This document shows positions 36,855 to 39,730 of a DNA stretch of 64,000 nucleotides, one piece after another. Made by a program: the position numbers and the translations under genes. Where the stretch lies: contig NZ_CP060436.1 of assembly GCF_003590145.2 (NCBI RefSeq), forward strand, positions 220,001-284,000. Reading direction: 5' to 3'. The stretch is from Pseudooceanicola algae (GTDB lineage: Bacteria > Pseudomonadota > Alphaproteobacteria > Rhodobacterales > Rhodobacteraceae). The number at the start of each line of letters is the position of its first letter. Within the stretch, counting starts at the first letter, position 1. Under the pieces are notes generated by a model, which was not told the DNA's origin, made no database searches, and saw only the letters and a list, made by a program, of their open reading frames with translations.

Positions 36855-37235
36855 CGTGGGCCGGTTCCTGGCCTCGACCGCCAATCCTGTGCCGCCATTT
36901 CTGCATCGGCTCTCGCAGAGGTGAACTTTGTGTCACCCGGTTTGGCCGGGTCGCAGGTCGCACGGATGTCGGGAGGCTCTTGCGAAAAAAATTTACCAAA
37001 AATCAGGGCTTCGGTGAAAACCTCGCACCTGAACGGGACGGGCGCCGCCGGGGCTGGTGGGTTGGCCGGAGTCTCGATGCGGGCGAAAATCCTCTCACAG
37101 GGGGGTCACGGCCTGTTGACGTGTCGCGATAGGCTTTGTGTTGCAGTCAGGAGAGCCTACATTAGAAAACAATGACATGTTCGGCCCCGCCGGGGTTTCG
37201 GACGTTGTCCTCACGAAGATGAAGGAGATATGGGA
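36855..37235 (+). other. Upstream region of the DegP-like protease
   Basis: About 380 bp without a gene. It includes an A-rich patch (about 36984-37006) and a palindrome near 36935-36950 (CCCGGTTTGGCCGGG). It must hold the degP promoter; the likely sigma factor is stress-related by analogy, but I cannot point to a convincing consensus. Confidence 0.4.
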
Positions 37236-38705
37236 ATGACCAGCCAGGCCTTGGCCTTCCGATCCCGACAACCGCAAATGTTCCGCGCCTTCTGGCTGAC
37301 CGTTCTGGCCGTCGCGCTGCTGCTGGGGCAGGCACTGTCCGCCCGCGCGCTGCCCGACAGCTTTGCCGATCTTGCAGACCAGATCAGCCCCTCGGTCGTG
37401 AACATCACCACATCGACGACGGTGACGGGGCGTGACCAGCCCTCTCCCATGGTGCCTGAAGGCTCGCCTTTCGAGGATTTCTTCCGCGAATTTCAGGACC
37501 GTAACGGCGGCAACGACGAAAGCCGCCCGCGCCGCAGCCAGGCGCTCGGCTCCGGGTTCGTGATTTCGGAAGATGGCTATATCGTCACCAATAACCACGT
37601 GATCGAAAACGCCGACGAAATCGAGATCGAATTCTTCAATGGCGAACGTCTTGATGCGACCCTGGTGGGCACGGATCCGAACACCGACATCGCCCTGCTG
37701 AAGGTCGAAGCCGAGGAACCGCTGCCCTTCGTTACCTTCGGGGACAGCGATACCGCTCGGGTCGGCGACTGGGCCGTGGCCATGGGCAACCCGCTGGGGC
37801 AGGGCTTTTCCGTCTCCGCCGGGATCGTTTCGGCCCGCAATCGCGCGCTGAGCGGCACCTATGACGATTACATCCAGACCGACGCGGCGATCAACCGCGG
37901 CAACTCGGGCGGTCCGTTGTTCAACACCAACGGCGAAGTGATCGGCGTCAATACCGCGATCCTGTCGCCCAATGGCGGCTCGATCGGGATCGGCTTCTCG
38001 ATGGCCTCCAACGTGGTCTCCAAGGTTGTGACCCAGTTGCAGGAATTCGGGGAAACCCGCCGCGGCTGGCTGGGTGTGCGCATCCAGGACGTGACCGATG
38101 ACATGGCCGAAGCCATGGGTCTGCAACAGGCCAAGGGGGCCATGGTCACCGATGTGCCCGATGGTCCGGCCAAGGATGCGGGCATGGAAGCCGGCGACGT
38201 GATCACGAGCTTCGACAATGTCGATGTGGATGACACCCGCGGCCTCGTGCGTCAGGTCGGCAATACCTCGGTCGGCAAGACCGTTCGCGTCACCGTCTGG
38301 CGCGATGGCGAGACCGAGACGCTGCGGGTGACCCTTGGACGTCGCGAGAACGCCGAAGCTGTGCCTGCGGCCCAGACGCAGGACATGCCTTCCGAACCGG
38401 AAGTGCTTGACCTGATGGGCATGTCGATCAGCGAACTGACCCCGGATTTGCGTCAGCAGCTGGATCTGGACGAAGACGCGACGGGTCTTGTCGTCACCAA
38501 TGTGGACGAGATGGCCAACGCCTTTGAAAAGGGCATTCGCGCCGGTGATCTGATCACCGATGCGGGCCAGCAGAAGGTGACCGGCCTGACCGATCTTGAG
38601 GACCGGATCACCGAGGCACGGGATGCGGGGCGCAAGTCCATCCTGCTGCTGGTGCGTCAGAACGGCGATCCGCGCTTTGTCGCGCTGCCGCTCGACGCGG
38701 ACTGA
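37236..38705 (+). CDS. degP: Do-family periplasmic serine protease
   Basis: A 489-residue protein with a signal peptide (AFWLTVLAVALLLGQALSARA), a trypsin-like domain with His121 (TNNHVIENA), Asp151 (DPNTDIALL) and Ser224 (RGNSGGPLF), and two C-terminal PDZ domains (GWLGVRIQDV at about 280 and a second after 385). It degrades or refolds damaged envelope proteins. The start at 37236 is chosen over the ATG at 37230 because AAGGAG (37222-37227) is 8 bp away. It follows hflKC, making a membrane quality-control block. Confidence 0.95.
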   Translation: MTSQALAFRSRQPQMFRAFWLTVLAVALLLGQALSARALPDSFADLADQISPSVVNITTSTTVTGRDQPSPMVPEGSPFEDFFREFQDRNGGNDESRPRRSQALGSGFVISEDGYIVTNNHVIENADEIEIEFFNGERLDATLVGTDPNTDIALLKVEAEEPLPFVTFGDSDTARVGDWAVAMGNPLGQGFSVSAGIVSARNRALSGTYDDYIQTDAAINRGNSGGPLFNTNGEVIGVNTAILSPNGGSIGIGFSMASNVVSKVVTQLQEFGETRRGWLGVRIQDVTDDMAEAMGLQQAKGAMVTDVPDGPAKDAGMEAGDVITSFDNVDVDDTRGLVRQVGNTSVGKTVRVTVWRDGETETLRVTLGRRENAEAVPAAQTQDMPSEPEVLDLMGMSISELTPDLRQQLDLDEDATGLVVTNVDEMANAFEKGIRAGDLITDAGQQKVTGLTDLEDRITEARDAGRKSILLLVRQNGDPRFVALPLDAD

Positions 38706-38822: not shown

Positions 38823-39215
38823 TCAGCCTGTCAGGCTGTCGAGCATGGCGGAAATATCCTCGATCTCTTCAGCCAGGACATGGGTCACGCCATCACCGCG
38901 CTGGATCCGCCCGGTGACCCGCAGCATCCGTCCCGAGATCACCGCGCGGCGGAAGCGTTCGAAGATCTTGCGCCAGGCAATGACATTGACCACGCCGGTC
39001 TCGTCCTCCAGCGTCAGAAAGATCACCCCCTTTGCGGTGCCTGGCCGTTGGCGCAGGATGACCAGCCCCGAAACCGTGACCCGTGCGCCATTGGGCGGAC
39101 GCGTCTGCCAGCCGGCGGGCAGGCTGGCGGGGGGGGGGCCAGACATCGGCTGGGCGCTGCCTTCCGGCGGGGCTGTCCGGGCAGGGGGCTGTGGTGTGGC
39201 GGGAAGGGCGGGCAT
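38823..39215 (-). CDS. Stand-alone OB-fold protein matching the C-terminus of DnaE2
   Basis: A 130-residue protein. Residues about 40-128 (VTVSGLVILRQRPGTAKGVI, then DETGVVNVIAW and TGRIQRGDGVTHVLAEEIED) match the OB-fold that ends error-prone DNA polymerase DnaE2, normally preceded by about 900 residues of PHP and polymerase domains. Here there is only a Pro/Ala-rich leader of 40 residues with its own ATG at 39215. A perfect alphaproteobacterial LexA box lies 69 bp upstream. It may be the residue of a large in-frame deletion of dnaE2, or a functional small single-stranded-DNA-binding protein of the SOS response. Confidence 0.75.
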   Translation of the reverse strand: MPALPATPQPPARTAPPEGSAQPMSGPPPASLPAGWQTRPPNGARVTVSGLVILRQRPGTAKGVIFLTLEDETGVVNVIAWRKIFERFRRAVISGRMLRVTGRIQRGDGVTHVLAEEIEDISAMLDSLTG

Positions 39216-39283
39216 AGGCCTGCGGTCTCCGGGCTGGGGTATGGCGGGGGCTTCGGCGCTGGCTACGACTTGGGCGGCGATGC

Positions 39284-39298
39284 GAACATTTATAGAAC
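39284..39298 (-). promoter_or_regulatory. LexA (SOS) box, GAAC-N7-GAAC
   Basis: GAAC at 39284-39287 and GAAC at 39295-39298 are separated by exactly 7 bp; on the minus strand this is GTTC-N7-GTTC, the direct-repeat LexA operator known in alphaproteobacteria. It is 69 bp before the start of the minus-strand DnaE2-type OB-fold gene and 109 bp before the plus-strand ferredoxin gene. The DnaE2 connection makes the former the likely target. Confidence 0.75.
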
Positions 39299-39376
39299 AT
39301 CTGTCCGGATTCGCAAGAATCGCACTGGGCGCGCGGGAAAATTGACTGGAAGCATGCAGATGGCGCAGCTAGGTAG

Positions 39377-39729
<353 letters not shown>

Positions 39730-39730
<1 letters not shown>

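Follow-up and report, generated by a model that had tools for sequence, protein, structure and literature searches.

A LexA-boxed stand-alone OB-domain gene in Pseudooceanicola algae as the probable separately encoded part of a split DnaE2 in Rhodobacteraceae

The 64,000-nucleotide stretch of the Pseudooceanicola algae genome analysed here (the window) carries on its minus strand a stand-alone gene for a DnaE2-type OB domain (38823..39215; ORF of 130 aa), and the lone DnaE2 OB-domain gene described in the initial annotation is therefore real. The gene is flanked by two genes on the plus strand, a convergent neighbour (37230..38705) whose product we take to be a degP/htrA-like protease and a divergent neighbour (39407..39730) presumably encoding a 2Fe-2S ferredoxin-like protein. 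Both belong to the conserved context and lie outside the system: in 117 of 123 loci (L238 left out), the ferredoxin gene stood no more than 1.3 kb upstream of the OB gene, and the degP/htrA-like gene was present in the fetched flank of 77/133 loci, many of these flanks being short.

The encoded protein consists of a proline-rich leader and an OB domain at about residues 41–127. Residues 46–121 matched the OB-fold family PF01336 above the Pfam cut-off (E = 1.6e-13), and residues 41–127 matched positions 952–1038 of the DnaE2 model NF004225 (1047 positions) with an E value of 4.4e-30, whereas the DnaE1 models gave far weaker matches (1.4e-07 or worse). Membership of the SSB family PF00436 was rejected, as the score of 15 bits fell below the cut-off of 26. 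The protein holds the OB domain only, not the PHP and polymerase core with catalytic Asp motifs expected of a DnaE2 polymerase; the core sits in a separate gene, and the SRDFH C-terminal tail of DnaE2 is absent. An AlphaFold2 model based on 71 aligned orthologues displayed a confident OB barrel and a less certain leader (mean pLDDT 85.9, pTM 0.72); an earlier model built on 16 sequences was of poor quality (pTM 0.44). Foldseek matched the model to the OB domains of AspRS/AsnRS, Stn1, RPA, and ExoVII, which speaks for the modelled fold and not for a function, and a PDB sequence search with the OB family profile returned no match at E 0.01. In addition, the median pairwise dN/dS of the OB core, roughly estimated from 5916 pairs with much saturation, was 0.215, which suggests that this core is under purifying selection. 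To our knowledge, the role of the OB domain in DnaE2 is not well understood.

A perfect GTTC-N7-GTTC LexA (SOS) box (GTTCTATAAATGTTC; 39284..39298, minus strand) lies 68 bp upstream of the ATG; a perfect box had also been noted in the initial annotation. The box encloses a −10-like hexamer, TATAAA (39289..39294, minus strand), and a −35-like hexamer, TTGCGA (39311..39316, minus strand), stands 16 bp before it. In 129 aligned OB upstream regions, the box holds the consensus TATNTT, a conserved T, T/G, G triplet at box −18 to −16 opens the element 16 bp before, and the most frequent position of the ATG is 2 nt downstream of the box. We infer from this geometry that LexA would cover the −10 and that the OB mRNA would be leaderless or nearly so. 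In the window, an in-frame ATC (39279..39281, minus strand) occupies the usual ATG place of the orthologues, 2 nt after the box, and the ATG of the ORF lies further down, so the true start of the window gene is uncertain; it is presumably the ATG at 39215–39213. The conserved W of WPRPP is G in the window protein. An out-of-frame ATG with an early stop was also noted at the LexA box (39279–39289).

A lone box of this kind is weak evidence, because the window genome contains 115 exact matches to the eight-base pattern and 102 to a reversed control pattern, and the first of these numbers is what could be cited for a chance match upstream of a constitutive gene. At orthologous loci, however, the box becomes significant: it is perfect at 118 of 124 unique stand-alone OB loci, mostly at a fixed place over the −10-like hexamer, compared with 12 of 3609 control windows taken from those OB loci. 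A chance box is thus highly improbable and was rejected. The set of 124 comprises 136 loci minus ten duplicates and two with less than 200 bp upstream, the window locus being outside it. The loci lacking a perfect box are L232, L233, L130, L147, L238, and L022; L022 has a box with one mismatch, and L238, which is without a core match, was counted as a box-less stand-alone locus. Of the perfect boxes, 101 lie 1–5 nt before an in-frame ATG (123 loci, L238 left out). Among the 80 best matching OB loci, which are not a random sample and for which the box was no criterion for inclusion, the carriers include Pseudooceanicola (nearest), Ruegeria, Roseivivax, Shimia, Marivita, Salipiger, Rhodovulum, and Gemmobacter. 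The initial annotation had pointed to other Rhodobacteraceae as the place to look for the same boxed short protein, and had held that absence from all relatives would speak for a deletion relic; gene and box proved to be conserved in relatives.

The approximately 900 codons that the initial annotation had considered deleted are not lost from the genome. Searching the whole window genome (G000, 4.09 Mb, four contigs) with NF004225 recovered DnaE1, the window OB gene, and an OB-less dnaE2 at C1:2663215-2666094, a 972-codon frame matching positions 6–938 of 1047. An imuA-like gene was located at C1:1405655 and an imuB-like gene at C1:3242049. No contiguous imuA-imuB-dnaE2 cassette, the possible presence of which had also been raised, was found in the window genome; its parts are dispersed over four distant places on contig C1. 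All four genes carry a LexA-type box, and so does the lexA gene of this genome (C1:1142193), with the box GAACAGCTATAGAAC at C1:1142092-1142106, about 90 bp upstream of the DNA-binding domain. Boxes were likewise found at 20/20 imuA loci, at 17/17 imuB loci (no more than about 150 bp from the matched domain), and at 23/23 dnaE2 core loci (20 GAAC-N7-GAAT and three GAAC-N7-GAAC). Since each gene has its own LexA-type box, all parts could be made together upon DNA damage. The fused cassettes at L092:2599, L110:4358, and L091:6813 have a LexA-type box within the 3′ end of imuA, directly ahead of imuB, and the operator that imuB carries once the cassette has broken up may derive from this box.

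The association between the OB gene and the OB-less polymerase was evaluated in two samples. In a 22-genome test, each of the 16 genomes carrying a stand-alone OB gene had a DnaE2 match ending at NF004225 positions 938–962, the match being in two pieces in three of them (at contig ends in G001, at a frame break in G034, and within one frame in G007), whereas the matches in the fused controls G012, G017, G030, and G031 reached positions 1039–1047. In a survey of 198 Rhodobacteraceae genomes, almost one per genus, that combined DnaE2 and OB searches and counted DnaE2 matches only above about 1207 bits, a short OB frame (up to 400 codons, stop to stop) was present, among the matches listed and with kinship ignored, in 59 of 62 genomes with OB-less DnaE2 and in 1 of 79 genomes with fused DnaE2 only; part of the 59 frames were fetched. 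The 62 genomes remained from 64 after removal of G130 (one continuous frame) and G030 (match divided between the two ends of one contig), neither of which was added to the 79, and a Fisher test on the uncorrected counts (60/4 vs. 1/78), which ignores ancestry, is not relied on. The lone fused-only exception (L148) is a DnaE2 end cut off at a contig boundary and terminating in SRDFH. A further 28 genomes, the window genome included, had a short OB frame and no DnaE2 among the matches listed.

As OB-less DnaE2 co-occurs with the OB gene (59 of 62 genomes among the matches listed) and the gene is nearly absent beside fused DnaE2, the OB domain probably works in trans. The proposal of an SOS-induced module acting on its own is accordingly upheld in part: the LexA-boxed lone OB gene is conserved in relatives, but the co-occurrence with OB-less DnaE2 makes it improbable that it acts alone. 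The main rival explanation remains such an independent SOS function, in which the OB gene would be induced for a job of its own, encoding a small single-stranded DNA (ssDNA)-binding protein for ImuB, DnaE1, or RecA that shares only ancestry with DnaE2. Its best hint is the near-complete genome G096 (seven contigs; L142, L277), in which a perfect-boxed OB gene, imuA, and imuB are kept and no DnaE2 core was found. It is also favored by five genomes in which the OB gene was not found despite an OB-less DnaE2, namely the drafts G089, G207, G225, and G109 (100–490 contigs) and G020 (66% complete). However, a gene with a job of its own should also persist alongside fused DnaE2, and among the matches listed, a fused DnaE2 together with the split pair occurs only in G080; with the near-exclusive distribution described above, in which the single fused-only case is a contig-end frame, this makes an independent job unlikely.

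The distribution outside the family was assessed by a class-wide search of 289 genomes, at least 149 of which had a match. Outside Rhodobacteraceae, the matches listed lay in long frames except for ten (frames <700 aa), all of which were fetched. Those of G386, G276, G466, G356, G467, G430, and G414 were fused DnaE2 cut by a contig end, that of G272 was a frame break, and those of G476 and G471 are likely decay remnants, which keep the SRDFH/R tail; one of these two is without a box in the fetched stretch and the other is part of a decayed cassette. This bears on the reading of the window gene as a relic of a deleted dnaE2 whose frame is open by chance. A fragment of a known enzyme, with the usual start codon changed in the window genome, is what such a relic could look like, but the likely decay remnants outside the family differ from the window gene as described, the gene keeps its place and a conserved box across the family, the dN/dS estimate, rough and saturated as it is, points the same way, and the remainder of DnaE2 is present elsewhere in the genome. 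A deletion relic is therefore scarcely credible and was rejected on the basis of conservation and the separate core gene. Judged by their sequences, many Rhodobacteraceae have a DnaE2 that is cut into two distant genes.

The position of the cut was deduced from both sides of the junction. The sequence across it is ...AHPMELLRPRLPESLPHERL...GLVITRQRPGTASG in fused relatives; split cores terminate in ...AHPVALLRHVLTPG followed by a variable tail, and the OB proteins have a variable leader followed by WPRPPACLPAARL...GLVILRQRPGTAKG. Because the split-core end AHPVALLRxxLTPG and the OB start WPRPPxCLPAxxL jointly span the fused AHPxELLRPRLPESLPHDRL region, the break lies in the linker before the OB domain. 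The SRDFH tail, with which nearly all fused DnaE2 end, is kept in 1 of 136 tabulated OB frames (G238), indicating that it is lost from the OB gene in nearly all genomes. The motifs PDIDVDFE and K(V/I)D(V/I)L, which we take to be the active-site motifs holding the catalytic aspartates, were found in 23/23 OB-less cores. Inspection by eye of 16 core ends and 11 OB starts revealed no intein-like sequence at the split, and an intein-mediated split was rejected on this basis; the split ends differ between genomes, the cores having tails that range from 0 to about 100 residues and the OB proteins having short leaders.

Core and OB trees were quick ones, computed without bootstrap, and the DnaE1 sequence of G096 and the partial sequence of G001 were omitted from the core tree. 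One clade with an SH-aLRT of 100 united 22 of the 23 OB-less cores, and the 23rd, that of G238, was placed near the base. The split clade had the fused DnaE2 of G025 as its sister in the core tree (89), and in the OB tree, which is too short for most forks, G025 stood among the fused ones; as G025 is placed differently in the two trees, any exact order of events is tentative. A single origin of the split is likewise not certain, because G238, which may stem from the same split or from a second one, is unplaced and the position of G025 conflicts between the trees. G238 (L141) has, about 1 kb apart, an OB-less dnaE2 with a box and a boxed OB gene with the SRDFH tail, separated by an opposing gene, presumably dimethylargininase-like, while its imuA and imuB lie side by side on another contig. 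From this arrangement, G238 could possibly represent an early state of the split. In G025 (L250, L279), DnaE2 is fused and imuA is found on another contig under its own box, and the cassette may have been dispersed before the polymerase was split.

Both forms occur within the genus of the window. Ten genomes have the OB gene and its box beside the ferredoxin gene, and ten genomes of the fused type have neither OB gene nor box in the fetched stretch, degP being outside the view in three; one of the latter ten, G004, has a frame-broken fused DnaE2. A ferredoxin tree of the genus, weak and poorly resolved, needs four changes.

Read from these genomes, DnaE2 is split and its cassette dispersed, with the boxes and active-site motifs retained and the two parts co-occurring. 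We therefore assign a probability of about 0.8 to the window gene being the OB domain of a split DnaE2, which would serve as an SOS-induced trans subunit of a dispersed ImuA-ImuB-DnaE2 mutasome and would associate physically with its other parts. In an ancestor within Rhodobacteraceae, the imuA-imuB-dnaE2 cassette would have broken up, and dnaE2 would have been cut in the linker ahead of the C-terminal OB domain, the polymerase part staying one gene and the OB domain becoming a second one between degP and the ferredoxin gene. According to this model, LexA is predicted to bind over the −10 of the OB promoter, and its removal upon damage would induce the gene, so that the OB protein would be translated from a short-leader or leaderless mRNA. 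The OB protein would then bind the single-stranded template and associate physically with OB-less DnaE2 and/or ImuB, completing the mutasome in trans. A doubtful extension of this model is that the OB domain has become an independently dosed, exchangeable subunit, whose level, set by its own (leaderless) LexA promoter, determines DnaE2 activity, and which also serves a partner other than DnaE2; this last point is suggested by the OB-only genome G096.

Several known systems offer a comparison. GTTC-N7-GTTC has been described as the alphaproteobacterial operator and imuA-imuB-dnaE2 as being under steady LexA control (PMC3323433), and ImuB as the hub of the mutasome (PMC10421592). The genes described here resemble this LexA-regulated ImuA-ImuB-DnaE2 cassette (PMC3323433, PMC10421592) in that imuA, imuB, and the core of DnaE2 are present, all of them LexA-boxed and the core with its active-site motifs, but they occupy four loci instead of one operon, and DnaE2 consists of two proteins. 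Three fused cassettes from Rhodobacteraceae have imuA, imuB, and dnaE2 side by side. The GTTC-N7-GTTC operator predicted over a promoter in the alphaproteobacterial LexA regulon has its counterpart at 39284–39298, and the lexA gene of the window genome is similarly boxed.

The OB-less polymerases found here fit a remark that several DnaE2 are without an OB domain (PMC3919608), where, in the part available, no separate gene is identified for the missing domain. Split ImuB, composed of an inactive Y-family polymerase and a stand-alone ImuB-C, has been described in PMC6511836 and PMC12926913; it is alike in that a mutasome module is encoded apart from its parent protein, but there ImuB is split, whereas here the split affects the C-family polymerase and the genome has an ImuB-type gene. 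Cyanobacteria, too, have C-family polymerases encoded by two genes, there split by an intein (PMC3919608); in contrast, the polymerase here is DnaE2, cut at a domain border with no intein-like sequence seen by eye. A 2026 survey of bacterial polymerases (PMC12926913) mentions a possible split ImuB and, in the sections on hand, no split DnaE2. In further reports, multiple binding of DnaE to 30-base ssDNA is likened to all polymerases with a C-terminal OB fold (PMC5627055), and D. shibae is reported to carry a cassette of the imuA-imuB-dnaE2 type on one of its plasmids (PMC9426580); among the LexA sites predicted for D. shibae and named in the part available of PMC6473078, there is no such gene. 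Searches of the open-access literature listed no title or abstract opening that describes a split DnaE2.

The window gene probably encodes the OB domain of a split DnaE2, conserved, under a LexA box, and supplied in trans. As the OB domain is separated in many genera, with both parts under LexA-type boxes, its role would be testable without touching the polymerase. The finding may also explain at least some of the OB-less DnaE2 of surveys, and it shows that a mutasome cassette can be dispersed over four LexA-boxed loci rather than lost.
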